Assembly (NCBI RefSeq): GCF_007997075.1
Contig: NZ_VORS01000003.1
Coordinates: 248,001-312,000, forward strand
Direction: 5' to 3'
Source of the DNA: Polaribacter sp. IC073
GTDB taxonomy: Bacteria; Bacteroidota; Bacteroidia; Flavobacteriales; Flavobacteriaceae
DNA length: 64,000 nt
Part shown: one piece after another, positions 14,960 through 36,740 of the stretch
Layout: every line of letters starts with the position of its first letter
Position numbering within the stretch: position 1 is the stretch's first letter
The notes under the pieces: generated by a model
Told to the model about the DNA's origin: nothing
The model's input: only the letters and a program-made list of their open reading frames with translations
Databases searched by the model: none
Program-made: the position numbers and the translations under genes

Positions 14960-16015
14960 ATGAAGAAAAAAATAATTATTCTTGGTGGCGGAATTTCTGG
15001 CATCTATTTAGGATATCAATTAAAGAAAGCAGGATTTTCAATTACAATTTTAGAAGCTAACAATAGAATTGGCGGTAGAATTTACACCAAAAAAACGCAT
15101 GATACAAAGGTTGAATTGGGGGCAACTTGGCTTTGGAGATACAATGAAGAATTATTAAAAGTTTGTAAAGATTTAAATATTTCTTTGTTTGAGCAAAACA
15201 TGCATGGTGATGCTTTATTTGAAGCGACAAACACAGATATGCCTCAACGTTTTCAAGTGCCAAAAAATCAAGAAATTAGTTATCGAATTGTTGGAGGAAC
15301 GCTAACTCTTTTAGAAAGAATGACCAAATATTTTTCCAAAGATGAATTGCAACTCAATCAAAAAGTGCTTCAAATTAATGATGATAAAACTTCAATAGAA
15401 GTGATTACCGAAAAATCTGCATTTACTGCAGCTATTGTTATTTCTACAATTCCGCCTCAGTTATTAGTGAATTCTGTTTCTTTTTCTTCGAAATTAGATG
15501 CGAATCTTATCCAAATTGCTAATAATACGCATACGTGGATGAAAGATGCTATAAAATTTGCAATCGTTTATAAAACGCCTTTTTGGAAAGAAAAAGGGTT
15601 CTCTGGTGTTGGTTTTAGTAATGTGGGGCCGTTTACAGAAATGTATGAGCATACTAACTTCGAGAATAACCGTTTTGCTTTCATGGGGTTCTTACATGGA
15701 CCTTTAGCAAATGAATCCAAAGAAACAAGAGAAGAAAAAATAAGAAAACAACTCTTTAAGTTTTTCGGAGAAGATGGTATAAATTATCTTTCTTATGAAG
15801 AAAAGGTATGGAACAAAGAAGAATTCACTAGTTTTGAAAATGATAAATTTATCAATCCACATTTTAATAACGGACATTCTGTTTATCAACAAGAATTTTT
15901 AAAAGGTAAATTTATAATTGCAGGTTCAGAAACTTCACCAAGTTATGGTGGGTATATGGAAGGCGCAATTTATAGAGGAAATCAGATTGTGGAACAGTTG
16001 ATTAATAAATTTTAA
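14960..16015 (+). CDS. Flavin-containing amine oxidase family protein
   Basis: The 351-residue protein starts with an FAD-binding Rossmann motif (IILGGGISGIYLGYQL) followed by EANNRIGGRIYT, the GG-doublet signature of amine oxidases and related desaturases. It ends with the second FAD segment (AGSETSPSYGGYMEGAIYRG). No signal peptide. Substrate unknown; the family includes monoamine oxidases, polyamine oxidases and phytoene-desaturase-like proteins. Probably in one unit with the SGNH gene. Confidence 0.85.
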   Translation: MKKKIIILGGGISGIYLGYQLKKAGFSITILEANNRIGGRIYTKKTHDTKVELGATWLWRYNEELLKVCKDLNISLFEQNMHGDALFEATNTDMPQRFQVPKNQEISYRIVGGTLTLLERMTKYFSKDELQLNQKVLQINDDKTSIEVITEKSAFTAAIVISTIPPQLLVNSVSFSSKLDANLIQIANNTHTWMKDAIKFAIVYKTPFWKEKGFSGVGFSNVGPFTEMYEHTNFENNRFAFMGFLHGPLANESKETREEKIRKQLFKFFGEDGINYLSYEEKVWNKEEFTSFENDKFINPHFNNGHSVYQQEFLKGKFIIAGSETSPSYGGYMEGAIYRGNQIVEQLINKF

Positions 16016-17529: not shown

Positions 17530-19945
<2,416 letters not shown>

Positions 19946-22550: not shown

Positions 22551-22580
22551 TGTTTAATGAATAACTTGTTTCGTTAAACA
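22551..22580. promoter_or_regulatory. Candidate operator 1: TGTTTAA-N16-TTAAACA
   Basis: A 30-bp inverted repeat ahead of the TetR-family gene. Outer arms TGTTTAA / TTAAACA are perfect and extend to 10 of 11 matches (TGTTTAATGAA / TTCGTTAAACA) around an 8-bp centre. It covers the likely -33 element of the regulator's promoter, as an autorepressor site would. An element with the same arms and the same 16-bp spacing occurs at 31125-31154. Confidence 0.7.
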
Positions 22581-22592
22581 TTTGTATCTTTA
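22566..22592 (+). promoter_or_regulatory. Candidate promoter of the TetR-led operon
   Basis: TTG (22566-22568) and TATCTTTA (22585-22592) are spaced by 16 bp, near the TTG / TAnnTTTG consensus, and the ATG follows 17 bp later. The -33 element lies inside the inverted repeat 22551-22580. Confidence 0.5.
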
Positions 22593-22609
22593 CCTAAAAT
22601 TTAATAATT

Positions 22610-23263
22610 ATGGCTCGCAAGAAAAACATTACAAAAGACAATTTAATTTCTTGGTACATGGAGTTTGTGCTAGAAAATAATCATGATCCCAAATCTGTAT
22701 TCAGTTTCGCAAAAGAAAATAATTTTGAAGAAGCAGATTTTTATAAATTTTATGGTTCTTTTGAAGCTATAGAAGAATCTATATTTAGTGAGTTCTTCAA
22801 CAACACTATTAAGGTTTTAGCTAAAAGTGAAGAATACCCAGAATACGATGCAAGAAATAAGTTGTTAAGTTTTTACTTTACCTTCTTTGAAATGTTAACG
22901 GCTAACAGAAGTTATGTTGTGTACGCTATCAAAGAAAACGGAGATTTAAAAAACTTAAAATCTTTTAAACACCTAAAGCAAGACTATAAAACTTTTGTAA
23001 ATAACATCGGAATAGAGAAGATTGATCTAAATCAGGAGAAATTAGGCAAAATTCAAGATAAAACAATTCAAGAATCTTCTTGGTTACACTTGGTAATTAC
23101 GATGAAGTTTTGGTTGGATGACACCTCTCCTTCGTTTGAAAAAACAGATATTTTTATAGAAAAATCTATCAATGCTCGTTTCGATTTAATGGACATAAAA
23201 CCATTGAAAAGTATTATCGATTTTGGCAAATTTATTTTAAAAGAAAAAATTAACTTCAATTAA
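22610..23263 (+). CDS. TetR/AcrR-family transcriptional regulator
   Basis: The 217-residue protein has an N-terminal helical DNA-binding region of TetR type (about 5-60: ISWYMEFVLENN, DPKSVFSFAKENNFEEADFYKFYGSFEAIEESIF) and an all-helical C-terminal ligand-type domain with no recognisable ligand pocket. It is the first gene of a long same-strand block that runs into photolyase genes. The inverted repeat just upstream is a candidate autoregulatory site, also present before the second block at 31.1 kb. I infer that it controls the light/oxidative stress island. Confidence 0.82.
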   Translation: MARKKNITKDNLISWYMEFVLENNHDPKSVFSFAKENNFEEADFYKFYGSFEAIEESIFSEFFNNTIKVLAKSEEYPEYDARNKLLSFYFTFFEMLTANRSYVVYAIKENGDLKNLKSFKHLKQDYKTFVNNIGIEKIDLNQEKLGKIQDKTIQESSWLHLVITMKFWLDDTSPSFEKTDIFIEKSINARFDLMDIKPLKSIIDFGKFILKEKINFN

Positions 23264-23270
23264 AGAAGCG

Positions 23271-24575
23271 ATGAAAACAATAGACTCTATACCAACATCA
23301 AAAATACAAAGAGCCTCTAAGTTAGTAACAACTGGAGCTAAAATTGGTGTAAATTATTTAAAATATTATGGTGATAAGCTTACCAAAACAGAATTAGAAG
23401 CGAAAGCTCGATTGGATGAAAACAATGCAGAAGATATTTACGACGGTTTAAAAACATTAAAAGGTTCTGCACTTAAAGTTGCACAGATGCTTAGCATGGA
23501 AAAAAGCATTTTACCGAAAGCGTACGTAGAAAAATTTTCGCTTTCGCAATTTTCTGTACCACCACTTTCTCCTGCTTTAGTTACAAAAACTTTCAAAAGA
23601 TATTTTGGCAAAAATCCGAACGAAATATATGACAAATTTGATGCTGTTTCTGTAAACGCAGCAAGTATTGGTCAAGTTCACAAGGCCGAAAAAGACGGTA
23701 AAAAATTAGCCGTAAAAATTCAATACCCGGGTGTTGCAGATAGTATTGCTTCAGATTTATCTTTAGTAAAACCAATTGCAATTAAAATGTTTAATATTAG
23801 AGGAAAAGATTCTGATAAATATTTTGAAGAAGTTGAGAGTAAATTAGTTGAAGAAACAAATTATATTTTAGAGGTAGCACAAAGTAAGGAAATTGTAGCG
23901 GCTTGTAAACACATTCCGAATTTAAATTTCCCAGAGTATTATGCTGATTTATCTTCGGATAGAATTATTACAATGGACTGGATGAATGGTGTTCACTTAT
24001 CTGAATTCTCGACAAAAGACCCAGAAATATCTAATAAATTAGGACAAGCCCTGTGGGATTTCTATATGTTTCAAATGCATAAATTAAAAAAAGTCCATGC
24101 AGATCCGCATCCTGGAAACTTTTTGGTGTCACCAGAAAATGAATTGATTGTAATCGATTTTGGTTGTATGAAAACCATTCCAATGGAATTTTACACGCCT
24201 TATTTTGAATTGGCAAAACCAGAAAACATTTCTGACCCTGCACTTTTTGAAAAAAAATTATATGAATTAGAAATTTTAAGAGAAGATGATTCTAAGGAAG
24301 AGTTAGACTTTTTTAGAGCGATGTTTCATGAAATGTTAAGCCTTTTTACACAACCCTTACACCAAGAGTTTTTCGACTTTTCAGATGAAGATTTTTTTGG
24401 TAAAATTTCTGATCTAGGAAGCAAGTATGCAAAAAGCACCGAACTAAAAAACATGAATGGTAATAGAGGTTCTAAACACTTTATTTACATTAACAGAACG
24501 TTTTTTGGTTTGTTTAATTTAATGCACGATTTAAAAGCAAAGAATATAAAAATTAATAACTTTAAATCTCTATAA
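23271..24575 (+). CDS. ABC1/UbiB (AarF) family atypical kinase
   Basis: The 434-residue protein carries the ABC1 core: the family's KxGQ-type motif (here LKVAQML, with Ala for Gly), the Ala-rich loop NAASIGQVHKA, the ATP lysine in LAVKIQYPG, the catalytic segment HADPHPGNFLV and the metal-binding VIDFGCM. UbiB/ADCK proteins are ATPases that support quinone and isoprenoid lipid synthesis. No C-terminal membrane helix is obvious. It lies 7 bp after the TetR gene and overlaps the flavin reductase gene by 1 bp, so one operon is very likely. Confidence 0.9.
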   Translation: MKTIDSIPTSKIQRASKLVTTGAKIGVNYLKYYGDKLTKTELEAKARLDENNAEDIYDGLKTLKGSALKVAQMLSMEKSILPKAYVEKFSLSQFSVPPLSPALVTKTFKRYFGKNPNEIYDKFDAVSVNAASIGQVHKAEKDGKKLAVKIQYPGVADSIASDLSLVKPIAIKMFNIRGKDSDKYFEEVESKLVEETNYILEVAQSKEIVAACKHIPNLNFPEYYADLSSDRIITMDWMNGVHLSEFSTKDPEISNKLGQALWDFYMFQMHKLKKVHADPHPGNFLVSPENELIVIDFGCMKTIPMEFYTPYFELAKPENISDPALFEKKLYELEILREDDSKEELDFFRAMFHEMLSLFTQPLHQEFFDFSDEDFFGKISDLGSKYAKSTELKNMNGNRGSKHFIYINRTFFGLFNLMHDLKAKNIKINNFKSL

Positions 24576-25195
24576 TGGCACTTTTCACTTTTAAAGAGAT
24601 TGAAAATTTAGATAAGATTTATAAAATAAATCTTATTAATAGCTGCTCTGGTTTTAAGTCTGCAAATTTATTAGGCTCAATGTCTGAAGAAGGAATTGCA
24701 AATGTTGCGGTTTTTAGCTCGGTTACCCACTTAGGTTCTAATCCCCCAACTTTGGGTTTTATTTTACGCCCGACAACAGTTCCTAGAGACACCTATAAAA
24801 ACATAAAAGATGCTGGTGTATTTACCATAAACCATATTCATGAAGCTATAATTGATGATGCACATCATACATCAGCAAAATATCCAAAGGAAGTTTCAGA
24901 ATTTGATGTTACCAATTTAGAAGCAGTTTACAAAGGGGATTTCAAAGCTCCTTTTGTAAAAGATTCTCCCGTGCAAATGAGTATGAAATTTATAGAAGAA
25001 GTGTATGTTTCTTCAAACGATGTGATGCTAATTGTTGCTGAGATTCAAGAACTATATATTGATGACGCACTGCTAGAAAAAGATGGATTGATTAATTTAT
25101 CCAAAGGAAAAATAGCGACAATAAATGGTTTAGATACGTATGCGATTCCGAAATTTAAGAAACAACTTTCGTATCAGAGACCCAAAAAAATATAA
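24575..25195 (+). CDS. Flavin reductase family (FMN-binding split barrel) protein
   Basis: The 206-residue protein has the flavin-reductase-like fold: SCSGFKSANLLGSMSEEGIANVAVFSS near the N-terminus and LGFILRPTTVPRDTYKNI with GVFTINHIHE in the middle, which build the FMN site. It could supply reduced flavin to neighbouring flavoproteins, including the photolyases (inference). Its ATG overlaps the stop of the ABC1 gene (TAATG). Confidence 0.85.
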   Translation: MALFTFKEIENLDKIYKINLINSCSGFKSANLLGSMSEEGIANVAVFSSVTHLGSNPPTLGFILRPTTVPRDTYKNIKDAGVFTINHIHEAIIDDAHHTSAKYPKEVSEFDVTNLEAVYKGDFKAPFVKDSPVQMSMKFIEEVYVSSNDVMLIVAEIQELYIDDALLEKDGLINLSKGKIATINGLDTYAIPKFKKQLSYQRPKKI

Positions 25196-25204
25196 AAACT
25201 ACGT

Positions 25205-26626
25205 ATGAAAATTCTTGTAACAGGTGCTACTGGCTATATTGGTAAAAGATTAATACCGTTATTATTAAATGACGGCCACACAATTGTTTGCCCTGTTAGA
25301 GATAAGAAAAGGGTAGAAAGCTACTATAAAAATCAAAAAAATGTAACGTTAATAGAAGCAGACTTTCTAAATGAAAAGACTTTAAACGCCATTCCCAAAG
25401 ATATAGATGCTGCTTATTACTTAATTCATTCGATGTCTAATTCAGCTAAAGAATTTCATGCTTTAGAAGAAAAATGTGCTTTCAATTTTAAAAATTTTGC
25501 AGAAAAATCCGATGTAAAACAAGTTATTTATTTAAGCGGAATTACCAACGACACTAAACTTTCTAAACATTTATTATCTAGAAAAAACGTAGAAAAAGCC
25601 CTGGCATCAGAAAAATATGCGCTTACCACTTTTAAAGCAGGTATTATTGTTGGTTCTGGAAGTTCTTCATTTGAAATCATTAGAGATATTGTAGAAAAAT
25701 TGCCTGCAATGATCGCTCCCAAATGGCTAAATACAAAAACACAACCTTTGGCCATTAGAGATGTTTTGTCTTTTTTACACAGATCTTTAGCAAGAGAAGA
25801 ATTATACAATACTTCACATGATATTTTTGGCCCAGAAGTACTCACTTACAAAGAAATGCTTTTGCAGTTTGCAGATGTAAGAAAGTTAAAAAGATACATA
25901 CTTACAGTTCCCGTAATGACGCCGAAATTATCTTCTTACTGGTTGTACTTTGTTACCTCAACCTCCTATAAATTGGCGAGTACTTTGGTTAATTCTATGG
26001 GGGTGGAAGTTATTGGAGTAAAAAGTAACATCAATACACTGTTAGATGTAAAACCAATGTCTTACAAGAAAGCTGTAAAATTAGCTTTCAGAAAAATTGA
26101 ACAAAACAGCATTGTTTCTAGCTGGAAAGATTCTTATGTAAGTAGTGGAAAATTAAAGAATTACGTTCATGAATTTGTAAATGTTCCAGAATATGGTTGT
26201 TTTAAAGATTTTAAAAAGAGAAAAGTAAAAAACAGAGAGAAAGCTTTAGATAAGATTTGGGCAATTGGTGGTGAAACCGGTTGGTATTACGGTACTTTTT
26301 TATGGAAAATTCGTGGTTTTGTAGATCAATTTTTTGGTGGCGCAGGTTTGCGAAGAGGAAGAAGACACCCAACCGAATTAAATGCGGGTGATGCTTTAGA
26401 TTTTTGGCGCGTTATATATGCAGATAAAGAAAACGGGAAGCTCTTACTCTACGCAGAAATGGTTTTACCAGGAGAAGCTTGGTTAGAATTTAAAGTAGAA
26501 GACGGCACTATTTATCAAACAGCAACTTTTAGACCTCATGGTCTTGCAGGTAGATTGTATTGGTACTCGGTAATTCCGTTTCATTGGTTTGTTTTTAACG
26601 GAATGATCAACAACATTAATAAATAA
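25205..26626 (+). CDS. NAD(P)-binding epimerase-like protein with DUF2867 domain
   Basis: The 473-residue protein has an atypical short-chain dehydrogenase N-terminal half (Rossmann motif VTGATGYIGKRLIPLL, about 4-19; YLIHSMS) and a C-terminal DUF2867 domain from about residue 330 (GGETGWYYGTFLWKIRG; AEMVLPGEAWLEF). This two-domain form occurs in light-inducible and photolyase gene clusters of several bacteria (recollection). The reaction is unknown. It follows the flavin reductase gene by 9 bp. Confidence 0.87.
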   Translation: MKILVTGATGYIGKRLIPLLLNDGHTIVCPVRDKKRVESYYKNQKNVTLIEADFLNEKTLNAIPKDIDAAYYLIHSMSNSAKEFHALEEKCAFNFKNFAEKSDVKQVIYLSGITNDTKLSKHLLSRKNVEKALASEKYALTTFKAGIIVGSGSSSFEIIRDIVEKLPAMIAPKWLNTKTQPLAIRDVLSFLHRSLAREELYNTSHDIFGPEVLTYKEMLLQFADVRKLKRYILTVPVMTPKLSSYWLYFVTSTSYKLASTLVNSMGVEVIGVKSNINTLLDVKPMSYKKAVKLAFRKIEQNSIVSSWKDSYVSSGKLKNYVHEFVNVPEYGCFKDFKKRKVKNREKALDKIWAIGGETGWYYGTFLWKIRGFVDQFFGGAGLRRGRRHPTELNAGDALDFWRVIYADKENGKLLLYAEMVLPGEAWLEFKVEDGTIYQTATFRPHGLAGRLYWYSVIPFHWFVFNGMINNINK

Positions 26627-26655
26627 GAAAAGTCTCTCTTATCTTAAGTTAGAAG

Positions 26656-26799
26656 ATGCATAAAAAACAACAACTACCAGAAAAAATATGTCTTGTTTGC
26701 AACAAACCTTTTACATGGCGAAAAAAATGGCAAAAAAATTGGGAGAATGTTAAATATTGTAGTGAAAGATGCAGAAGAAACAAGACAACACAAGCTTAA
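26656..26799 (+). CDS. DUF2256 small zinc-finger-like protein
   Basis: A 47-residue reading frame starting at ATG 26656. It has two Cys pairs (ICLVCNKPF and YCSERCRR) and the central [12 protein letters not shown], which is the DUF2256 pattern. The four cysteines probably bind zinc. The frame overlaps the 5' end of the CRY-DASH gene by 31 bp in another frame, so translation is probably coupled. DUF2256 genes next to cryptochromes are a recurrent arrangement; the function is unknown. Confidence 0.87.
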
Positions 26800-28079
26800 T
26801 TTGGTTTCGTACTAATTTACGAGTACAAGACAACAACTCTTTAAAAAAAGCAATAGAACATCATTCTAAAGTAATTGCTGTTTATTTTTTTGACCCTAAA
26901 TTATTTAAAATTGATGTATTTGGTTTTCAGAAAACAGCAAAATTTAGAGCAAAATTTCTTATCGAAACAATTATCGATTTAAAAAATAATTTATCAAAAT
27001 TAAATATCACGCTCCTTACTTATTTTGAAAGTCCAGAAGAGAAAATTCATAAAATTTTTGATGAATTTTCTATCGATACCATCTACACTCAAAAAGAATG
27101 GACTCTAGAGGAAGTTTCTACTAATAATCTTGTAAAAAACACAGTTGCTAACAACGTTTCCTTTATTGAGGATTATGACCAGTTTTTATACCATCCTGAT
27201 TCAGTTTCTAAAGGTTTTTCTAAAATTCCGGATGTGTTTACGCTCTTCAGAAAAAAGTTAGAAAAAACAGTAAAAATTAAACCTGAAGTTTCCATACCCA
27301 AACAACTTTTAGATAATTTAATTAAAAATAATACAGAAGTTCCAACTTTAGAAGACCTCGGTTTTAAAAGTTTTGAAACTCATGCAAATACCGCATTCCC
27401 TTTTTCCGGCGGAGAAACAGCCGCTTTAGAACGCTTAAATGCTTATTTTTTTGAAACTAAGAAAGTTGCTTTCTACAAAAAAACAAGAAACGGCTTAGTT
27501 GGCATAGATTATAGTACAAAATTTTCGCCTTGGTTGGCTAACGGAAGTTTATCTGCGAAGACTATTTATTTTAAAATCAAGGAATTTGAAGCGGAGTTTG
27601 GTGCTAATCAATCTACTTATTGGGTGGTTTTTGAATTAATTTGGCGAGACTATTTTAAATATATTTCTTTAAAATACAATTCTAAAATTTTTGAAATCGG
27701 CGGAATTTTAGGTAAAAACTATACTTGGAATTATGACAAACAATTGATTCAGCAATGGATTGATGGAGAAACAAAAGACGATTTTGTAAATGCCAACATG
27801 ATAGAATTAAAAGAAACTGGCTGGATGAGCAACCGAGGAAGACAGAACGCAGCATCTTATTTTGCTAAAGAATTGTTGCTAGACTGGAGAATTGGTGCTG
27901 CCTATTTTGAGTCTCTTTTATTAGATTATGATGTGCATAGCAATTACGGAAATTGGATGTATGTTGCTGGTGTAGGAAATGACCCAAGAAATAGAAAATT
28001 CAACACAAAACTACAAGCAGATCGCTACGATACTAATTATAAGTTTAGAAAATTGTGGTTAGAAAAAAGACTCTTTTAA
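26769..28079 (+). CDS. Cryptochrome DASH
   Basis: The 436-residue flavoprotein has an N-terminal photolyase antenna domain ([17 protein letters not shown]) and a C-terminal FAD domain. The DASH branch is recognised by [17 protein letters not shown], where canonical photolyases have a VxAAPYFR-type segment, and by [17 protein letters not shown] repairs CPDs in single-stranded or looped DNA and may signal. It starts inside the DUF2256 gene and is followed after 1 bp by the Fe-S photolyase gene. Confidence 0.92.
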
Positions 28080-28080
28080 T

Positions 28081-29613
28081 ATGAAAAAACTACGCTTAAT
28101 TCTTGGTGATCAATTAAACAGCGAACATTCTTGGTTTTCAGAAACAGATGAAAACACCATATATTGTTTGTTTGAAATGCGTCAGGAAACAGATTATGTA
28201 ACACACCATATTCAAAAAATTGTTGGTTTTTTTGCTGCAATGAGAAACTTTGCAGCAGAATTAAAAAATAAAAAACATACGGTTGTTTATTTTCATATAA
28301 ATGATACTATCAACACCCAAAATCTAACAAAAAATTTATCGCTCTTAATTAAAGAGAATAACATACATACATTTGAATATTTATCTCCGGATGAATACCG
28401 CCTAGACAAGCAATTAAAAGATTTTTGTTCAGCTTTAAATATTGAATCTAACGTTTTTTCTACGGAACACTTTTATACCGAAAGAGACGATTTAAAAACT
28501 TTCTTTAAAGGAAAAAAACAATTTTTGATGGAGCATTTTTATCGTGATATGCGTAAAAAACATCAAATATTAATGGTTGATAAGCAACCCGAAGGTGGTA
28601 CATGGAATTATGATAAAAGCAATCGAAATAAATGGAAAGGCGACACATTAATTCCGCAAGAAATAAGTTTTGACAACGATGTTGAAAAGATTATTGCGGC
28701 TATTGAAAAAGCTGGGGTTAAATCTATCGGAAACATCCATCCTAAATATTTCGAATATCCAATTTCTAGAGAACAGTCTTTAGAACAATTAGATTATTTC
28801 TGTGAACATTTATTGGTTCATTTTGGCGATTATCAAGACGCAATGCATACAGATAAAATTTATCTTTACCACAGTAGAATTTCTTTTGCAATGAATACAA
28901 AAATGGTTTCTCCGAAAGAAATTATCGCAAAAGTTTTAAAAAAATATCGAGAACAAGAAGATGACATCCACATCTCTCAAGTAGAAGGTTTTATAAGACA
29001 AATTTTAGGCTGGCGCGAATATATGAGAGGCATGTATTGGATGTTAATGCCAGACTATAAAAAAGAAAACTTTCTCGAAAACACAAATAAACTACCAGCG
29101 TTTTTTTGGACAGGTAAAACAAAGATGAATTGTCTTAAAAATGCCATTAACAATTCACTAGACAATGGTTATGCGCATCACATTCAACGATTAATGATTA
29201 CTGGTAATTTTACACTGTTAACACAGATTCATCCAGATGAAATAGACGCATGGTATTTAGGCATTTATGTAGACGCCGTAGAATGGGTTCAATTACCAAA
29301 CACGCGTGGTATGAGTCAGTTTGCAGACGGAGGAAAAATTGCGACAAAGCCTTATGTTTCTAGTGGAAGTTATATTGGTAAAATGAGCAATTACTGTGAT
29401 GCCTGTGTCTATAAGAAAACAAAGAAATTCGAAGACAACGCGTGTCCTTTTAACACACTTTACTGGAACTTTTTAGACGAAAAAAAAGAAAAATTAGCAA
29501 ATAACTTCAGAATGAAAATGATGTATAGCTTATTAAACAAAATGTCTTCTGAAGATCGCCTAAAAATTAAAGAAAAAGCGAACCATATTATTAATAATTT
29601 AGATGAATACTAA
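28081..29613 (+). CDS. Iron-sulfur prokaryotic cryptochrome/(6-4) photolyase (FeS-BCP)
   Basis: The 510-residue protein belongs to the COG3046 branch of [4Fe-4S] photolyases. The four cluster ligands are in place: C351 (MNCLKNA), C439 and C442 (YCDAC) and C455 (ACPFN). The spacing is nearly the same as in Agrobacterium PhrB, which repairs (6-4) photoproducts and uses a ribolumazine antenna. The N-terminal LRLILGDQLN is typical of the family. It overlaps the next photolyase-family gene by 11 bp. Confidence 0.93.
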   Translation: MKKLRLILGDQLNSEHSWFSETDENTIYCLFEMRQETDYVTHHIQKIVGFFAAMRNFAAELKNKKHTVVYFHINDTINTQNLTKNLSLLIKENNIHTFEYLSPDEYRLDKQLKDFCSALNIESNVFSTEHFYTERDDLKTFFKGKKQFLMEHFYRDMRKKHQILMVDKQPEGGTWNYDKSNRNKWKGDTLIPQEISFDNDVEKIIAAIEKAGVKSIGNIHPKYFEYPISREQSLEQLDYFCEHLLVHFGDYQDAMHTDKIYLYHSRISFAMNTKMVSPKEIIAKVLKKYREQEDDIHISQVEGFIRQILGWREYMRGMYWMLMPDYKKENFLENTNKLPAFFWTGKTKMNCLKNAINNSLDNGYAHHIQRLMITGNFTLLTQIHPDEIDAWYLGIYVDAVEWVQLPNTRGMSQFADGGKIATKPYVSSGSYIGKMSNYCDACVYKKTKKFEDNACPFNTLYWNFLDEKKEKLANNFRMKMMYSLLNKMSSEDRLKIKEKANHIINNLDEY

Positions 29614-31093
29614 TAGAGAAGAAATACATGTTGTTTGGTTTAAAAGAGATTTGCGTTTGCAAGATAACGAGGCAATTTACAATGCCTTAAAAGCAAACAA
29701 GCGCGTACTTTTTTTATATGTTTTAGAAAACTCTTTAATAAAAGATGCCCATTACAACCAGCGCCATTGGAATTTTATAAAACAATCTTTAGTCGCTCTA
29801 AACACCGATTTAGAAAAGTACAATACCAAAATTCTTTGTGTAGAAACAGAAGTTGTAACGGCTTTCAATCAAATTTTTAATTCGTATAAAATTAATACTG
29901 TTTTTTCTCACCAAGAAACGGGTTTGTTAATTACCTATAATAGAGATAAAGAATTTACCAGATATTGCAGTAATAATTTGATGAATTGGGTTGAAAACAG
30001 TAATAACGGTGTTTTAAGAGGTTTGCCAAATAGAGAAGACTGGTTTGACAGATGGGATGATTATATGCACGCACCTCAGATTAAAAATCATTTGAATACT
30101 GATAAATTGCTTACAATTGATGAAATCAATCAACTCGAAAAAAATTTTAAGACAGTAGATTTAACTACAAATAATGACACCCTTTTTCAAAAAGGAGGTA
30201 CAAAAATGGCATGGAGGTATGCCCATACTTTTTTTAAAGACCGTCATGAAAAATATATGTTCAATATCTCTAAACCTCAACTAGCTAGAGAAAGCTGTAG
30301 CAGGTTGTCGCCCTATATTGCTTGGGGAAATATTTCTATTCGTCAAATTTTTCAAGAAGCAACAAAACATAAAACAATTGCCAATAAAAGACATTTAGAC
30401 GCTTTTATTTCTAGACTGCGTTGGCAAGCACATTTTATTCAGAAATTTGAAATGGAACACACCATGGAAAACGCAAGTATAAATAAAGGCTATCATAAAT
30501 TAAAGAAAGGCATTTCTTTAGAATACCAAAAAGCTTGGAAAGAAGGTGAAACTGGCTTTCCTTTAATAGACGCTTGTATGCGTTGCTTACAAGAAACGGG
30601 TTATCTAAATTTTAGAATGCGCGCCATGTTGGTTTCTTTCTTTACGCATATTTTATGGCAACCTTGGCAAGCAGCATCCCAACACTTATCTTCTCTTTTT
30701 TTAGATTTTGAACCAGGAATTCATTTTCCTCAGTTGCAAATGAATGCAGGCGAAACAGGAATAAATATTCTTAGAATTTACAATCCTGTAAAAAATAGCT
30801 TAGAACATGATAAAGAGGGTGTTTTCATAAAAAAATGGATTCCAGAGTTAGCACACCTAGCTACACCATTTGTGCACGAACCTTATTTAATGACCCCTTT
30901 AGATCAACAATTTAATAATTTTGAACTAGGTGTAGATTATCCAAATCCGATTGTAGCACTTAAAGTTGCGAGAAAAAAAGCGAGCGATACTTTATGGAAC
31001 TTAAAAAATAATTCTACCGTAAGAACAGAGAGTTCACGAATTTTAAAAAAACACACGCTATCTAACAGAAGCAAAATGACTAAAACAGAGTAA
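29603..31093 (+). CDS. Divergent photolyase/cryptochrome-family flavoprotein
   Basis: The 496-residue protein has a clear antenna-domain start (VVWFKRDLRLQDNEAIYNAL) and a photolyase FAD-domain core (ESCSRLSPYIAWGNISIRQIF; RLRWQAHFIQKFE). It departs from canonical photolyases near the flavin: where these have a SNxGNWQW-like stretch and AAPYFRIFNP, it has FPQLQMNAGETGINILRIYNP. By eye the N5-facing Asn and one Trp of the electron chain are missing, so it may be a sensor or a different repair enzyme. It overlaps the Fe-S photolyase gene and is the last gene of the first block. Confidence 0.85.
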   Translation: MNTNREEIHVVWFKRDLRLQDNEAIYNALKANKRVLFLYVLENSLIKDAHYNQRHWNFIKQSLVALNTDLEKYNTKILCVETEVVTAFNQIFNSYKINTVFSHQETGLLITYNRDKEFTRYCSNNLMNWVENSNNGVLRGLPNREDWFDRWDDYMHAPQIKNHLNTDKLLTIDEINQLEKNFKTVDLTTNNDTLFQKGGTKMAWRYAHTFFKDRHEKYMFNISKPQLARESCSRLSPYIAWGNISIRQIFQEATKHKTIANKRHLDAFISRLRWQAHFIQKFEMEHTMENASINKGYHKLKKGISLEYQKAWKEGETGFPLIDACMRCLQETGYLNFRMRAMLVSFFTHILWQPWQAASQHLSSLFLDFEPGIHFPQLQMNAGETGINILRIYNPVKNSLEHDKEGVFIKKWIPELAHLATPFVHEPYLMTPLDQQFNNFELGVDYPNPIVALKVARKKASDTLWNLKNNSTVRTESSRILKKHTLSNRSKMTKTE

Positions 31094-31124
31094 ACTGGGT
31101 CAATTTTGTTATTTTATTTATTTT

Positions 31125-31154
31125 TGTTTAACTTATTGAAAAAACACTTAAACA
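31125..31154. promoter_or_regulatory. Candidate operator 2: TGTTTAA-N16-TTAAACA
   Basis: A second 30-bp element with arms TGTTTAA (31125-31131) and TTAAACA (31148-31154) separated by exactly 16 bp, as at 22551-22580. It stands in the only sizeable gap of the light island, ahead of the second gene block. The central 16 bp are not shared, which points to the arms as the recognised part. Confidence 0.7.
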
Positions 31155-31169
31155 TAATTATATTTTTCG

Positions 31170-31177
31170 TACCTTTG
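31170..31177 (+). promoter_or_regulatory. Candidate -7 box of the second block
   Basis: TACCTTTG matches TAnnTTTG exactly. No TTG lies at 17-19 bp; instead the right arm of operator 2 is there. Transcription starting a few bases downstream would fall on or after the first possible ATG (31182), which favours the ATG at 31227 as the real start of the next gene. Confidence 0.55.
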
Positions 31178-31226
31178 GGTAATGATATTTAACACAACAA
31201 ATAAAAACAAAGATGCAGCAGCAACA

Positions 31227-31604
31227 ATGAATGATTTGTTAGGTGAACCCTACTCTTTTATTCAATCTATTAAAAAAGGAGGCACAGGTTCTAAAAGAAT
31301 GATAATAGAAGAGGTTAGCCATGGTTTTTTAACAGTGATGAATTCTATTTCAGATATTAATTATGGCAATATAGAGCTTAGAGAAAAAGGCATTATAGTT
31401 CACATCAATAAAGGCTTAAAAAATTATAGTTGGGCAATTCCTTACTATCAGCTGCACACATACAAAACGGCTGGTTTTAGTATTCATGCACAAGGAAACT
31501 TCGTAAGATTTAAAAACAATAACATGTTGAAAGATAATAAGAAGTTTCTCGATAAAATTATAGGTTTTAAAATAGAAAACGACAAAGAATATGACTTTCA
31601 ATAA
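31227..31604 (+). CDS. Uncharacterised protein of the light-response island
   Basis: I do not recognise this family. Counted from ATG 31227 it has 125 residues (MNDLLGEPYSFIQSI...). A longer version from ATG 31182 would add 15 residues but begins on the predicted transcription start. The sequence is mixed beta strands with aromatic residues (YSWAIPYYQLHTYK), soluble, without signal peptide or cysteine motif, and could form a small PH-like barrel (speculation). It overlaps the TIGR03643 gene by 14 bp and heads the second block. Confidence 0.7.
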   Translation: MNDLLGEPYSFIQSIKKGGTGSKRMIIEEVSHGFLTVMNSISDINYGNIELREKGIIVHINKGLKNYSWAIPYYQLHTYKTAGFSIHAQGNFVRFKNNNMLKDNKKFLDKIIGFKIENDKEYDFQ

Positions 31605-31881
31605 CACAAATCAACTAAATGGCATATCTATTGATAGAATAATAGAGATGGCTTGGGAAGACAGAACAACTTTTGAAGCAATTGAATTTCAATTTGGTTT
31701 AAAAGAGCAAGAAGTTATCAATTTAATGCGGAGAGAAATGAAACTTAAAAGTTTCAAAATGTGGCGAAAAAGAGTTCAAGGAAGAAAAACCAAGCACGAG
31801 AAGTTAAGGTCCTTCGAAAAAGGAAGGTTTAAATGCTCGAGACAAAAAGCAATATCAAGTAACGCAATAGCAAAAAGATAA
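31591..31881 (+). CDS. TIGR03643/DUF2805 family protein
   Basis: The 96-residue basic protein has the family core DRIIEMAWEDRTTFEAIEFQFGL, EVINLMRREMK, SFKMWRKRVQGRKTKH. It looks like a small helix-turn-helix-like DNA-binding module. The family often sits near photolyase or cryptochrome genes; its role is unknown. The C-terminal 30 residues, rich in Lys/Arg, are an extension past the conserved core. Its start lies inside the upstream gene. Confidence 0.86.
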   Translation: MTFNNTNQLNGISIDRIIEMAWEDRTTFEAIEFQFGLKEQEVINLMRREMKLKSFKMWRKRVQGRKTKHEKLRSFEKGRFKCSRQKAISSNAIAKR

Positions 31882-31941: not shown

Positions 31942-32634
31942 ATGATTACAGACGCAATAGCAAAAGATACCCAAAATAAAATGACTGATTTTTCTAATCA
32001 AGAAATTGGTGATGATCATTTATTTACAGGTTTAAAAACACCTATGAAGGCAGACGCTTTTGTACTTTCTGACGAAGTTAAGAAAGAAAAAATTGCCACC
32101 TTATTTTCTGAAATAATGGATGTTATGGGATTAGATCTAACAGATGACTCTCTAAAAGGCACTCCGAAAAGGGTTGCAAAAATGTATATAGACGAGATTT
32201 TTTCTGGATTAAACCCTGCAAACAAACCTAGAGTTGCTTTGTTTGATAATAAATATCAATACAACCAAATGTTGGTTGAAAAGAACATTACGTTTTATTC
32301 TAATTGCGAGCATCATTTTGTTCCAATTATTGGAAAAGCACATGTAGCGTACATCTCTTCAGGAAAAGTAATTGGCTTGTCTAAGTTAAATAGAATTGTA
32401 CAATATTATGCAAAAAGGCCGCAAGTACAAGAACGTTTAACAAACCAAATAGCAGAAGAATTAAAAGCAATTTTAAATACAGACGACGTTGCTGTTATTA
32501 TAGACGCAAAACATTTGTGTGTATCTTCTAGAGGTATTAAAGATGATACCTCCTCTACTGTAACATCTTACTTTGGGGGCAAGTTTAACAGCCCAGAAAA
32601 AATAGTTGAACTACAAAACACATTAAACTATTAA
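31942..32634 (+). CDS. folE: GTP cyclohydrolase I
   Basis: FolE converts GTP to dihydroneopterin triphosphate, the first step to tetrahydrofolate. The 230-residue protein has the zinc-binding NCEHHFVPIIGKAHVAY with the second Cys in AKHLCVSSRGI, and the KLNRIVQYYAKRPQVQERLT segment. Position in a photolyase island suggests supply of pterin or folate for the MTHF antenna (inference). ATG 31942 gives a 13-residue lead (MITDAIAKDTQNK) before a second ATG at 31981. That lead repeats a GACGCAATAGCAAAA-like word found at the end of the TIGR03643 gene, so 31981 may be the original start. Confidence 0.93.
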   Translation: MITDAIAKDTQNKMTDFSNQEIGDDHLFTGLKTPMKADAFVLSDEVKKEKIATLFSEIMDVMGLDLTDDSLKGTPKRVAKMYIDEIFSGLNPANKPRVALFDNKYQYNQMLVEKNITFYSNCEHHFVPIIGKAHVAYISSGKVIGLSKLNRIVQYYAKRPQVQERLTNQIAEELKAILNTDDVAVIIDAKHLCVSSRGIKDDTSSTVTSYFGGKFNSPEKIVELQNTLNY

Positions 32635-32637
32635 GTT

Positions 32638-32862
32638 ATGAAATTAATTGACAAAGCATTAGAGTTTGAAACTAGAAAAAAAAGATTCCCAACAACCAGC
32701 GACCGTATTATGGCAGCTAGAGAAGCAAAGGATTTAATTCTAAGTTTAAACGAAGTATATAAGGAAAATAAAGATGCTAAAATTATGGACATCATGAAAC
32801 GACTAACCGTAATTAAACAAAGAATCGAAAGACGTTTGAAAGGAAAGCCGCTAACGTCTTAA
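32638..32862 (+). CDS. Small helical protein, paralogue 1
   Basis: A 74-residue charged, all-helical, cytoplasmic protein, 3 bp after folE. It is clearly paralogous to the next gene: both share an (E)FExRKxxFxTTSDRIxAxRExKxLIL pattern, a LNEVYK segment, an MKRLTxxKQxIExRLKG segment and the same length. I do not recognise the family. No signal peptide or metal motif. The gene pair is inside the light-response block. Confidence 0.75.
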   Translation: MKLIDKALEFETRKKRFPTTSDRIMAAREAKDLILSLNEVYKENKDAKIMDIMKRLTVIKQRIERRLKGKPLTS

Positions 32863-32943: not shown

Positions 32944-33159
32944 ATGAATTTATTAGAAAGAGCCGAAGAATTTGAACATAGAAAGTTCTCATTTAAGACA
33001 ACAAGTGATAGAATTGTAGCATCTAGAGAAGTGAAAGCACTTATCTTAGAACTAAACGAAGTATACAAAATAGAAAAAGATCTAGAAATAATGGATCAAA
33101 TGAAGCGCTTAACAGCTGTAAAGCAGAAAATTGAAAAGCGCTTGAAAGGAAGACCTTAA
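32944..33159 (+). CDS. Small helical protein, paralogue 2
   Basis: A 71-residue paralogue of the preceding gene, 81 bp further on (MNLLERAEEFEHRKFSF; TTSDRIVASREVKALILELNEVYK split over the helices; KRLKGRP at the end). It is followed after 6 bp by a short-chain dehydrogenase gene. The AT-rich 81-bp gap has no operator-like repeat. The pair is a local duplication that has diverged well but kept length and pattern, so both are probably functional. Confidence 0.75.
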   Translation: MNLLERAEEFEHRKFSFKTTSDRIVASREVKALILELNEVYKIEKDLEIMDQMKRLTAVKQKIEKRLKGRP

Positions 33160-33165
33160 AAGCAT

Positions 33166-33849
33166 ATGAGAAAAATAGTAATAGTTGGAGGAAGCAAAGG
33201 AATAGGACAAGCAATTGTTAAATCTTTAATTGAAGAAAATATAGTTGTAAACATTAGTAGATCAGCTCCTTTGCAGCCTCACGCTAATCTAACTCATTAT
33301 AATTGTGACATCCTTACAGATGACTTACCAGAAATAGAGGCAGTAGATACTTTAATTTATTGCCCTGGAAGCATTAATTTAAAACCAATTTCGAGACTAA
33401 AGTTAAACGATTTTAGAGAAGATTTTGAAATAAATGTTGTTGGAGCAGTAAAAACAATTCAACAATATTTACCGAAGTTAAAAAACGGAGAAAACCCTTC
33501 TATTTTATTATTTAGTACGGTTGCAGCCAAACTAGGTATGCCTTATCATGCAAGTGTTGCTGCAGCAAAATCTGCCGTAGAGGGTTTAACAAAATCTTTA
33601 GGCGCAGAATTAGCACCAACAATTCGCGTAAATGCAATTGCACCAACTGTTACAGAAACAGACTTGGCATCTAAGCTTCTAAGGAATGAAAAAATGATAG
33701 AAAATATCACAGAACGTCATCCACTTAAAAAGTTTCTAAAACCACATGAAGTTGCAGACTTAGCAACTTTTCTTATCTCTGAAAAAGCAAATTCAATCTC
33801 TGGTCAAATTTTCGAACTTGATTGTGGAATTGTAAGTTTCAAAATCTAA
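33166..33849 (+). CDS. Short-chain dehydrogenase/reductase
   Basis: The 227-residue classical SDR has the cofactor motif VGGSKGIGQAIV (about 6-17), NAG-equivalent YCPGS, and a catalytic Ser and Tyr-x-x-x-Lys-like region: LLFSTVAAKLGMPYHASVAAAKSAVEG, where the usual YxxSK is altered to YHASVAAAKSA. The loss of the simple YxxxK spacing means activity is uncertain. SDRs of this kind occur in light-inducible clusters of other bacteria (recollection). It is followed after 4 bp by the glutathione peroxidase gene. Confidence 0.85.
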   Translation: MRKIVIVGGSKGIGQAIVKSLIEENIVVNISRSAPLQPHANLTHYNCDILTDDLPEIEAVDTLIYCPGSINLKPISRLKLNDFREDFEINVVGAVKTIQQYLPKLKNGENPSILLFSTVAAKLGMPYHASVAAAKSAVEGLTKSLGAELAPTIRVNAIAPTVTETDLASKLLRNEKMIENITERHPLKKFLKPHEVADLATFLISEKANSISGQIFELDCGIVSFKI

Positions 33850-33853
33850 AAAA

Positions 33854-34327
33854 ATGACAGACATCTATAAAATCAATATCAATAGCTTACAAAATAAAGC
33901 TATTGACTTATCCGAGTACAAAAATAAATATATTCTTTTTGTTAATGTAGCTTCTAAATGTGGCTTTACATCGCAATACAAAGAATTAGAAGAATTGTAC
34001 CAAACACACAAAGAAAACTTAATGATTATTGGTTCTCCTTGCAACCAGTTCGGTAGCCAAGAACCCGGAACCTCAGAAGATATTGCAGCTTTTTGTAAAG
34101 TAAACTTTGGCGTCTCTTTTATAATGACAGAAAAAATTGATGTAAAAGGAATCAATCAACATCCATTATATACTTGGTTAACAGATAAAAGTTTAAATGA
34201 CAAAAAAAGTTCTACAGTAAAATGGAACTTTCAAAAGTACCTGGTTTCTCCTGATGGAAAGTTAATAGATTATTACTTTTCAATTACAAAACCATCAAGC
34301 TCAAAAATTACAAAATATTTAATATAA
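33854..34327 (+). CDS. Glutathione peroxidase-family thiol peroxidase
   Basis: The 157-residue protein has the catalytic C36 in NVASKCGFTSQYKELEELY, the Gln of the tetrad in GSPCNQFGSQEPG and the Trp/Asn pair in VKWNFQKYLV. It uses Cys, not Sec. Bacterial members usually take electrons from thioredoxin and reduce H2O2 and lipid peroxides. Its place in the photolyase island fits defence against photo-generated peroxides. Confidence 0.92.
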   Translation: MTDIYKININSLQNKAIDLSEYKNKYILFVNVASKCGFTSQYKELEELYQTHKENLMIIGSPCNQFGSQEPGTSEDIAAFCKVNFGVSFIMTEKIDVKGINQHPLYTWLTDKSLNDKKSSTVKWNFQKYLVSPDGKLIDYYFSITKPSSSKITKYLI

Positions 34328-34508: not shown

Positions 34509-34970
34509 ATGAAACAACTAAAACTTACCATACTCTTTCTAGTTATCAACTTTGGAGGTTTGGCAATTGGCAGTTGGTTTATGAATAACGGGCCGCTTTC
34601 TGATTGGTACACAAACCTAAATAAAGCTCCTTGGACACCACCAGGTATTGTATTTGGTATTGCATGGACATTGATTATGATTTGCTTTTCTATTTATTTA
34701 GGAAAACTTTTTAGCCAGGAAAATACGCAAAAAAACAAACTAATCTTTCTGTTTCAATTTGTGTTAAATGTAAGCTGGAATTTTATCTTCTTCAATCAAC
34801 ATTTGGTTTTGTTTGGGCTGTTTACCATTGTACTGTTAACATCTCTCCTTTTTATTTACTACTTTAAACGAAGTGATAAAGTAAATAATTACAAGTATTT
34901 ATTGCTGCCTTATATGATTTGGTTGTGTATTGCAACTTCTTTAAATCTTTATATATTAGTCCATAATTAA
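34509..34970 (+). CDS. tspO: TspO/MBR family membrane protein
   Basis: The 153-residue protein with five hydrophobic helices has the TspO pattern: LAIGSWFMNNGPLSDWYTNLNKAPWTPPG split over helix 1 and the loop, GIAWTLIMICFSIYLG, and FVLNVSWNFIFFN. TspO binds tetrapyrroles such as protoporphyrin IX and helps degrade them in light, and it regulates pigment genes in Rhodobacter (literature). In this island it may remove photosensitising porphyrins. It is followed after 1 bp by the SRPBCC gene. Confidence 0.93.
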   Translation: MKQLKLTILFLVINFGGLAIGSWFMNNGPLSDWYTNLNKAPWTPPGIVFGIAWTLIMICFSIYLGKLFSQENTQKNKLIFLFQFVLNVSWNFIFFNQHLVLFGLFTIVLLTSLLFIYYFKRSDKVNNYKYLLLPYMIWLCIATSLNLYILVHN

Positions 34971-34971
34971 A

Positions 34972-35439
34972 ATGAAAATATACACGCTTCACAAAAAACA
35001 ACAATTACCAATTTCTTTAGATGAAGCTTGGGAGTTTTTATCCAACCCAAGAAATTTAAAAAAAATTACGCCAGATTACATGAGTTTCGACATCGTGTCT
35101 AAGATAGACAGACCGCTATACACTGGCCAAATTATTCAATATATTGTAACACCTCTTTTAGGTATTAAGACAAAGTGGGTTTCTGAAATTACACATATAG
35201 AAGAAAATAAATACTTTGTAGACGAGCAAATGTATGGTCCTTATGCACTTTGGCATCACAAGCATTTTATAAAAGAAATTGATGGTGGTGTAGAACTGGA
35301 AGACATTATCGATTATAAGGTTCCCTTAGGAATACTTGGTCAAATAGTGCATCCTTTTTTAGTGAAACCAAAATTAGAAGAAATTTTTGGTTATAGACAG
35401 AAAAAACTAATTGAACTTTTTGGCGCGTATAAAAAATGA
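34972..35439 (+). CDS. SRPBCC (START-like) family protein
   Basis: The 155-residue cytoplasmic protein matches the SRPBCC fold of ligand-binding proteins annotated as cell division inhibitor-like: LPISLDEAWEFLSNPRNLKKITPDYMSF at the N-terminus, YALWHHKHFIKEIDGGVELEDIIDY in the middle and FGYRQKKL at the end. It likely binds a hydrophobic ligand. SRPBCC genes beside photolyase and tspO genes recur in light-inducible clusters (recollection). It overlaps the photolyase gene by 4 bp (ATGA). Confidence 0.86.
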   Translation: MKIYTLHKKQQLPISLDEAWEFLSNPRNLKKITPDYMSFDIVSKIDRPLYTGQIIQYIVTPLLGIKTKWVSEITHIEENKYFVDEQMYGPYALWHHKHFIKEIDGGVELEDIIDYKVPLGILGQIVHPFLVKPKLEEIFGYRQKKLIELFGAYKK

Positions 35440-36740
35440 AAAAGACAGTAAATATTTTTTGGTTTAGAAGAGATCTAAGATTAGATGACAATGTAGGATT
35501 TTACAATGCCTTAAAAAGTAACACCCCTGTTCTACCTCTTTTTATTTTTGATGAAGAAATACTAAAAAAACTATCGAAAGATGATGCTAGAGTTACTTTT
35601 ATACATGCTACATTGCAAAAAATGCGTGTTATTTTAAAAGAAGAACACAAAAGTAGTCTTGCGATGTTTCATGGAAATCCAAAAGAAATTTATGCTCAAT
35701 TAATAAAAGAATACAACATAGAAACTGTTTTTACAAATAGAGACTATGAGCCTTATGCAAAGGAAAGAGATGAAGGAATTGAGCAATTATTAAATGAAAA
35801 TAATATTGAATTTAAAACATTTAAAGATCAAGTAATTTTTGAAAAGAATGAAGTTGTAAAAAAAGACGGACTACCGTATGTGGTTTACACCCCTTTTATG
35901 AAGGTTTGGAAAGAGAAATTTAAAACCACTCACTTAAACTTTCACTACACAAGTTCATTTTTAAAAAACTTGGTAAAAACCAAAGAATTACCAAATCTAA
36001 GTTTGACTGATATTGGCTTCACAAAATCCAATCAAAAAATAGAAGCTTACACCGTTTCGCCATCACTTATTCAAAATTACGAAGACACCCGTAACTTTCC
36101 GGCACAAGACACCACCTCTAAATTGGGTCCACATTTACGTTTTGGAACTGTTAGCATTCGTAAAATGGTAGAAAAAGCAATTTCTGAAGAAAACGAAATT
36201 TTTTGGCAAGAATTAATCTGGAGAGAGTTTTTCATGCAAATTCTTTGGCATTTTCCTCATACATCTCAACAATCTTTCAAAGCCAAATACGACAGAATTG
36301 AGTGGAGAAATAATGAAGGCGAGTTTAATAAATGGTGCAACGGAGAAACAGGCTATCCTTTTGTTGATGCAGGAATGCGCCAGTTAAATCAAACTGGTTT
36401 TATGCATAACAGGGTTAGAATGCTTGTAGGCAGTTTTTTATGCAAGCACTTATTAATAGATTGGCGCTGGGGAGAAGCCTATTTTGCAGAAAAACTGCAC
36501 GATTATGAAATGGCAAGTAACGTTGGTAATTGGCAATGGGTTGCTGGTTCTGGTGTGGACGCTGCACCTTATTTTAGAATTTTTAATCCAACCACTCAAA
36601 TTAAAAAATTCGACAAAGATTTAGAATACCTTAACAAATGGGTTCCAGATTTTCAAGAACTCACCTACCCTAATGAAATGGTAGACCATAGAGAAGCAAG
36701 AGAAAGATGCTTGCAAGTATACAAGGAAGCTTTAAATTAA
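35436..36740 (+). CDS. phrB: Class I CPD photolyase
   Basis: Repairs cyclobutane pyrimidine dimers with blue light through FADH-. The 434-residue protein has the antenna domain (NIFWFRRDLRLDDNVGFYNAL) and a canonical FAD domain: GPHLRFGTVSIRKM, LIWREFFMQILWHFP, MASNVGNWQWVAGSG with the N5-facing Asn and electron-chain Trp, and DAAPYFRIFNP. It is the last gene of the second block; its ATG overlaps the SRPBCC stop. This is the most orthodox of the four family members here. Confidence 0.95.
   Translation: MKKTVNIFWFRRDLRLDDNVGFYNALKSNTPVLPLFIFDEEILKKLSKDDARVTFIHATLQKMRVILKEEHKSSLAMFHGNPKEIYAQLIKEYNIETVFTNRDYEPYAKERDEGIEQLLNENNIEFKTFKDQVIFEKNEVVKKDGLPYVVYTPFMKVWKEKFKTTHLNFHYTSSFLKNLVKTKELPNLSLTDIGFTKSNQKIEAYTVSPSLIQNYEDTRNFPAQDTTSKLGPHLRFGTVSIRKMVEKAISEENEIFWQELIWREFFMQILWHFPHTSQQSFKAKYDRIEWRNNEGEFNKWCNGETGYPFVDAGMRQLNQTGFMHNRVRMLVGSFLCKHLLIDWRWGEAYFAEKLHDYEMASNVGNWQWVAGSGVDAAPYFRIFNPTTQIKKFDKDLEYLNKWVPDFQELTYPNEMVDHREARERCLQVYKEALN

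Follow-up and report, generated by a model that had tools for sequence, protein, structure and literature searches.

Two consecutive gene blocks, rich in photolyase/cryptochrome genes, lie in a 64-kb stretch of the Polaribacter sp. IC073 genome (the window, meaning the whole stretch analyzed), and each is headed by a 30-bp inverted repeat, TGTTTAA-N16-TTAAACA. The question raised by this locus is which protein reads the two repeats. Our data indicate that they are very probably operators of a CarH/LitR-like protein encoded beside crtI-crtB on another contig, which would repress its targets in the dark and free them in the light.

The preliminary description reported two repeats with 7-bp arms and a 16-bp spacing, one over the promoter of a TetR-family gene and the other in the gap 5′ of the second gene block, and proposed scanning the genome and related Flavobacteriaceae for the motif. 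Both repeats are present as exact matches in these places, starting at 22551 and 31125, with site 1 ending 29 bp before the TetR-like start codon. They are the only exact matches among all positions of the window, and 100 dinucleotide shuffles of the window gave no match. A scan of the genome (3.76 Mb, 50 contigs) found five exact sites and none for the reversed pattern used as a control. When up to two mismatches were allowed, we noticed no enrichment (141 matches versus 155 for the control); therefore, only near-exact sites were taken as informative. Five one-mismatch genomic sites (L006–L010) were left out of the target count; one of them (L009) sits 5′ of an SDR gene that labels no site surveyed in relatives.

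Our comparative set comprised 120 Flavobacteriaceae genomes, one per genus, and contained 326 exact sites compared with 14 for the reversed pattern; 90 genomes carried the motif. A second set consisted of 80 named relatives fetched by similarity to the TetR protein. The promoter of the TetR-like gene carried the exact operator in 70 of these 80, and also in 24 of 30 loci that include the own genome and overlap the 80 relatives. A further 41 exact sites in the 80 relatives precede the gene of a 140-residue protein (hyp140), the first gene of the second block, mostly ~8.5 kb downstream of the TetR site, as here. The spacing is strict. In 250 loci (2.02 Mb, nearly all fetched by protein similarity) in which spacings from 4 to 32 were compared, the inverted arms occurred 209 times at N16, five times at N17, and zero to two times at each other spacing, whereas the same arms as direct repeats occurred zero to three times per spacing (arm TTAAACA tested alone). 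The operator centers vary between genomes, save for a T-rich/A-rich tendency. The notion of chance AT-rich palindromes, to which the 32% GC of the window and the lack of enrichment at two mismatches lend some color, is refuted by the counts, the single spacing, and the fixed place of the site in the relatives. In a breadth survey of 238 genomes of the phylum, matches were found in 24 of 26 members of the family, in 0 of 3 genomes from elsewhere in the order, in 16 of 30 from elsewhere in the class, and in 6 of the remaining 179.

The preliminary description had treated the TetR-family protein and the repeats as a regulator/operator pair acting in place of LitR/CarH-type photoreceptors. A real, conserved operator does head both blocks; the TetR protein does not hold up as its binder, and a CarH/LitR-like gene does exist in this genome, adjoining its own copy of the operator. 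Matches to the CarH-like protein were found in 96 of the 120 genomes and to the TetR protein in 76. We typed CarH by its recognition helix, taking the residue that precedes the invariant Trp (position 34 in the own protein); this residue could be read in 95 proteins. The motif is present in 86 of 87 genomes with an Ile- or Met-type CarH and in 4 of the other 33; the latter comprise seven Lys-type genomes (one with the motif), 24 without a CarH match (two with it), an Ala-type genome with no site, and a genome whose CarH DNA-binding domain is cut by a contig end, which has five sites. Among the Ile/Met genomes, the motif occurs in 69 of 70 with the TetR gene and in all 17 without a TetR match; among genomes lacking such a CarH, it occurs in 1 of 6 with the TetR gene and 3 of 27 without. 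Motif presence thus follows the Ile/Met-type CarH (Fisher p = 2e-22, versus 2e-8 for TetR, both values ignoring relatedness), and the TetR gene is neither required nor sufficient.

On these data, it is very improbable that the TetR_C_23 protein itself is the factor that occupies the two sites and controls the island. Its gene stands directly 3′ of site 1, the motif is conserved at its promoter, and its presence correlates with the motif, a correlation confounded with CarH; in two Lys-type Cellulophaga, five N-terminal positions of the protein differ, although two sequences say little. Besides the distribution described above, operator copies at carH, fasciclin, and rhodopsin genes speak against it. 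The protein has no Pfam TetR_N match, PF17931 (TetR_C_23) being its sole match at E ≤ 0.01, and in 80 proteins the mean net charge is −4.1 for the helix-turn-helix (HTH) region and −2.05 for the putative recognition helix. We rejected it as the binder because the motif is distributed with the CarH-like gene and the HTH is acidic.

The TetR-like protein is 88% identical to its homologue in Polaribacter sp. BM10. Its AlphaFold2 model (pLDDT 88.3) matches the TetR protein 3c07_A (Z = 15.6, root mean square deviation 3.1, 187 residues aligned), which places it in the TetR fold. It also matches human COQ9 (Z = 13.2, root mean square deviation 6.2, 198 aligned), close to the values for other TetR proteins; we give no weight to the lack of a structural match better than TetR or COQ9. 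It shares with COQ9 the TetR fold and an adjoining ABC1 (COQ8-type) kinase, and differs in falling short of the COQ9 model TIGR02396 (20.6 bits, below the cut-off of 74.55). The two genes at 22610–24575 look more like partners of the COQ9/COQ8 type than like a regulator with its target. The TetR_C_23 protein is probably not the regulator and would instead be a product of the regulon, a COQ9-like partner of the ABC1 kinase. One genome, G059 (L058 and L200; one contig, 99% complete), keeps the TetR/ABC1 genes and has no CarH-like match and no exact operator.

The CarH-like protein matches PF13411, PF00376, and PF02607 (MerR HTH and B12-binding_2), all over cut-off, and aligns with Thermus CarH 5c8d in phmmer (E = 4.3e-12, residues 15–231). 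In passages of PMC11796333, the residues of CarH that serve adenosylcobalamin (AdoCbl) are given as W131, E141, H142, and H177. The own protein has all four; among 95 CarH-like proteins, the Trp, the Glu, and the H177 equivalent are invariant, and the H142 equivalent is present in 82. An adenosyltransferase gene is encoded in the genome, making a supply of AdoCbl plausible. B12-binding_2 was found twice in the genome, in the CarH-like protein and in an 891-residue open reading frame on contig C46, which, from its size, is a candidate MetH. Downstream of the CarH-like gene lie a crtI-like gene (Pfam Amino_oxidase; named by reading) and one of the phytoene-synthase family (PF00494), and a CrtI homologue is found at most 260 bp downstream of carH in 76 of 87 Ile/Met loci. 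An operator at carH itself, either exact and downstream or looser and at the gene start, was found in 59 of these 87 loci. Exact sites lie just downstream of carH in 37 loci, 36 of them before the CrtI homologue, and looser sites lie at the carH start in 38 (a raw count, without chance control). The carH starts (L022–L051) often show ATGAACA or TTGAACA preceded, at a spacing of N16, by a TGTTTAA half-site (without shuffle control), an arrangement that could reflect autoregulation.

The operator letters co-vary with the recognition helix. Several Lys-type genomes carry TGTCTAA-N16-TTAGACA or near forms at orthologous promoters, and where Lys replaces Ile the operator appears to tend toward this C-form. 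The strict C-form gave seven matches in the 120 genomes, five in three Lys-type genomes and two elsewhere. Three of them are in G066: one is 5′ of a fasciclin gene, one 5′ of a 6-pyruvoyl-tetrahydropterin-synthase-like gene that has folE behind it, and one 5′ of a CIA30-like gene that precedes an SDR gene (all named by reading). Among the 80 named relatives, two Cellulophaga have the C-form operator at the TetR promoter; the CarH residue, looked up afterwards in twelve relatives, is Lys in both Cellulophaga and Ile in nine others, with no match in one. Six Lys-type genomes have the TetR gene: both arms of its operator are changed in four (G038, the two Cellulophaga, and G040, the latter at N17) and one arm in G066, and G014 has no such site. 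In Lys-type G028, the sole exact TGTTTAA site falls within coding sequence. G025 and G007 have diverged CarH proteins but are of the Ile type and retain TGTTTAA. In a tree of 99 CarH-like proteins, the nine Lys-type sequences are consistent with a single origin (support 61/91; recovered in 58% of bootstrap trees), near Ile-type G025 (exact position uncertain) and the long branch of Ile-type G007.

According to passages in PMC9304148 and PMC8156234, the operators known for CarH consist of 11-bp direct repeats in tandem, and their core is TnnACA. The arm TTAAACA includes TAAACA, and the Lys-type arm TTAGACA includes TAGACA, both of which fit this core. As the TnnACA arms stand here in inverted order, it is the half-site that resembles CarH, and not its arrangement.

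We further compared the place of the operator relative to the promoter. The Flavobacterium −7 consensus is given as TAnnTTTG in passages of PMC9723704. In the relatives, a TAnnTTT box starts 4–5 bp past the operator at 65 of 70 TetR sites and 35 of 41 hyp140 sites. Of the 37 exact sites that lie downstream of carH, 28 have their first TAnnTTTG within the operator and five have it directly against the left arm (four of which, by eye, also hold a TAnnTTTG inside); in four, none was found. At 38 rhodopsin sites, the box is inside the operator in 17 and beyond it in one. Because the place of the box relative to the operator varies, and a MerR-type activator would need one fixed place, occlusion of the polymerase fits better than activation. 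We infer that the CarH-like protein binds the operator directly and represses. In the dark, the AdoCbl-loaded protein would sit on both 7-bp arms and cover promoter elements, keeping both island blocks, crtI, and the fasciclin and CHRD genes silent; in the light, the Co–C bond would break, the protein would be released, and the targets would be induced together.

All evidence for the CarH-like protein as the reader is correlative, and a sigma-70-family (ECF-like) gene adjoins carH in the own genome, so a different regulator or a sigma factor co-inherited with the CarH-like gene could be imagined to read the motif. We consider this quite unlikely: the operator letters shift with the recognition-helix residue of CarH, the arms hold its TnnACA core, sites lie at carH itself, and the distance from operator to TAnnTTT box varies between promoters, unlike that of a promoter element.

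A second alternative accepts the CarH-like protein as the binder and makes it B12-independent, as CarA is, or activating, without light control. The inverted operator is nearer to the inverted repeats of CarA than to the direct repeats of CarH, as both appear in passages of PMC9304148, and the H142 equivalent is replaced in 13 of the 95 proteins. Against it, the three remaining cobalamin residues never vary, none of the four is missing from the own protein, many of the targets are light-damage genes, and activation by spacer twisting is disfavored by the varying distance between operator and TAnnTTT box. We therefore regard this alternative as unlikely and favor a CarH-like repressor that would depend on AdoCbl and on light. 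In the 13 proteins, the H142 equivalent is replaced by Arg or Ser (L174, L175, L177, L178, L180, L186, L188, L190, L191, L193–L195, and L197), and their genomes retain the operator; B12 independence or altered photochemistry is possible in them.

Several further observations, together with the loss of the H142 equivalent and the inverted order of the arms, weigh against control by a CarH-like repressor. Against the NCBIfam CarH equivalog NF052513, the protein reaches 67.2 bits, short of the cut-off of 400, which is why we use the name CarH/LitR-like. Two genomes have sites and no CarH match, namely G079 with six (81% complete, 610 contigs) and G003 with one (80% complete), and G020 has an Ile-type CarH and no site. 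A near-exact site is missing from three of the 30 TetR loci, among them G084 despite its Ile-type CarH. No TAnnTTTG box was found at 20 of the 38 rhodopsin sites. Genome-wide, TGTCNAA-N16-TTNGACA gave 14 matches among the seven Lys-type genomes and 33 among the other 113, and its reversed control was commoner (76, G072 alone contributing 17); because this count is weak, we relied on positions at orthologous promoters. Finally, the Lys type could have arisen once, so that the operator switch may be a single event, though several promoters moved with it.

To define the targets, we surveyed the neighbors of 66 exact sites in other genomes, most carH and TetR sites being left out on purpose. A neighbor of a recurring type was found at 52 sites and none of these types at 14: fasciclin at 16, hyp140 at 8, crtI at 5, SRPBCC and GLPGLI-like at 4 each, SDR_DUF2867, TetR, and HtpG at 3 each, DUF6435-like and a second SDR at 2 each, and rhodopsin and flavin reductase at 1 each. 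Four of these labels (GLPGLI-like, HtpG, DUF6435-like, and rhodopsin) had members of the 66-site set itself as seeds. The operator adjoins htpG (Hsp90) genes in several genomes (L102, L225, L229, and L241). The recurrent targets are the TetR/ABC1/photolyase block, the hyp140/folE block, crtI, fasciclin, and proteorhodopsin.

A rhodopsin is present in 69 of 299 genomes, and 67 upstream regions were long enough to read. Of these promoters, 22 carry an exact operator, 16 one with a single mismatch, 7 with two, 8 with three, and 14 with four or five; at most one mismatch is thus found in 38 of 67, compared with 0.06 expected from dinucleotide shuffles. The rhodopsin promoter of this strain has a site with three mismatches at best, and because of this degeneracy we do not claim rhodopsin control here. 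The own blh-rhodopsin gap (C41, L019, about 15485–15541) holds this three-mismatch operator and a perfect 18-bp palindrome, ATGTTTTAGCTAAAACAT. For many rhodopsin-bearing members of the family, we lean slightly towards the view that one B12 photoreceptor directly controls the proton pump, photolyases, carotenoids, and fasciclins as one light regulon for phototrophy and photoprotection, through an inverted CarH operator whose letters depend mostly on a single residue of the recognition helix (Ile to Lys, T to C).

The features of the island and the other genomic sites are collected in Table 1. Among the products, hyp140 has no Pfam or NCBIfam match. Two similar small open reading frames follow folE in tandem (32638–32862, 74 residues; 32944–33159, 71 residues), with no Pfam match. 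In two other genomes, homologues of the SDR oxidoreductase at 33166 have an operator of their own, and SRPBCC-like homologues are located at four other operator sites.

Table 1. Operator sites, promoter elements, and genes of the island, with related features elsewhere in the genome (window positions unless a contig is given)
Feature	Position	Strand	Remarks
Operator site 1	22551..22580	none	exact match; promoter of TetR-like/ABC1/photolyase block
Putative −7 box TATCTTTA	22585..22592	+	from sequence; 4 bp past operator site 1
TetR_C_23 protein	22610..23263	+	PF17931; TetR fold, COQ9-like resemblance
ABC1/UbiB-type kinase	23271..24575	+	PF03109
Flavin reductase-like protein	24575..25195	+	PF01613
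SDR + DUF2867 protein	25205..26626	+	PF13460, PF11066
DASH-type cryptochrome	26769..28079	+	TIGR02765 over cut-off
Photolyase-related protein (DPRP)	28081..29613	+	PF04244
Photolyase/cryptochrome	29603..31093	+	PF03441, PF00875
Operator site 2	31125..31154	none	exact match; heads second gene block, 5′ of hyp140 reading frame
Putative −7 box TATATTTT	31159..31166	+	from sequence; 4 bp past operator site 2
Second −7 box candidate near site 2, TACCTTTG	31170-31177		from sequence
hyp140 (140 residues), first gene of block 2	31182..31604	+	operator 5′ in relatives
DUF2805/TIGR03643 protein	31591..31881	+	profile matches
GTP cyclohydrolase I (FolE)	31942..32634	+	PF01227
SDR oxidoreductase	33166..33849	+	PF13561
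Glutathione peroxidase	33854..34327	+	PF00255
TspO	34509..34970	+	PF03073
SRPBCC-like protein	34972..35439	+	named by reading; no Pfam match
Photolyase	35436..36740	+	PF03441, PF00875
Third genomic site	C48:18416		between crtI-like gene and MerR + B12-binding_2 gene
CarH/LitR-like MerR + cobalamin-binding protein	C48, about 18468-19385		adjoins crtI-crtB
Fourth genomic site	C44:337936		5′ of CHRD-domain gene
Fifth genomic site	C48:216862		5′ of fasciclin gene

With CarH of Thermus, Bacillus megaterium, and Myxococcus, the AdoCbl-dependent, light-sensitive MerR repressor of crt genes, the system described here shares the MerR and B12-binding domains, the W/E/H/H residues, a gene beside crtI, the half-site core, and an operator over the promoter. 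It differs in its inverted 7-bp arms at N16, its low NCBIfam CarH score, and its wider predicted target set (photolyases, the folE block, fasciclin, and rhodopsin). Pseudomonas class II LitR (PplR/PmlR) controls phrB, cryB, folE, and an SDR gene under light, according to passages of PMC9758184, and so has in common with it a LitR/CarH-family repressor with photolyase, folE, and SDR targets; its sites are TGTACA-N12-TGTACA, its partners are LOV proteins, its hosts are gammaproteobacteria, and rhodopsin is not mentioned in those passages. CarA of Myxococcus xanthus binds inverted repeats near −35 (in passages of PMC9304148) and differs in being B12-independent and paired with CarS, whereas the cobalamin residues are conserved here. 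MliR of Bizionia, a MerR-like regulator, was set aside as a different protein, described in part of PMC9478572 as being without an effector domain.

LitR control of photolyase, cryB, and folE is already known in Pseudomonas. Our searches of the open-access literature turned up no mechanism of light control described for the Flavobacteriaceae, and no paper on how flavobacteria control rhodopsin or on a CarH operator or regulon in them. Passages of PMC7064467 name the mechanism of light-induced carotenoids as clarified only for Myxococcus and Thermus and report a light-induced Chryseobacterium without a mechanism. Our results name a candidate photoreceptor, operator, and regulon for the Flavobacteriaceae and offer a specificity code, Ile with TGTTTAA and Lys with TGTCTAA. 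To our knowledge, the light control of proteorhodopsin is an open question, which this makes directly testable. Through the proposed regulon, DNA repair, pigments, and light harvesting would all be tied to the supply of vitamin B12.

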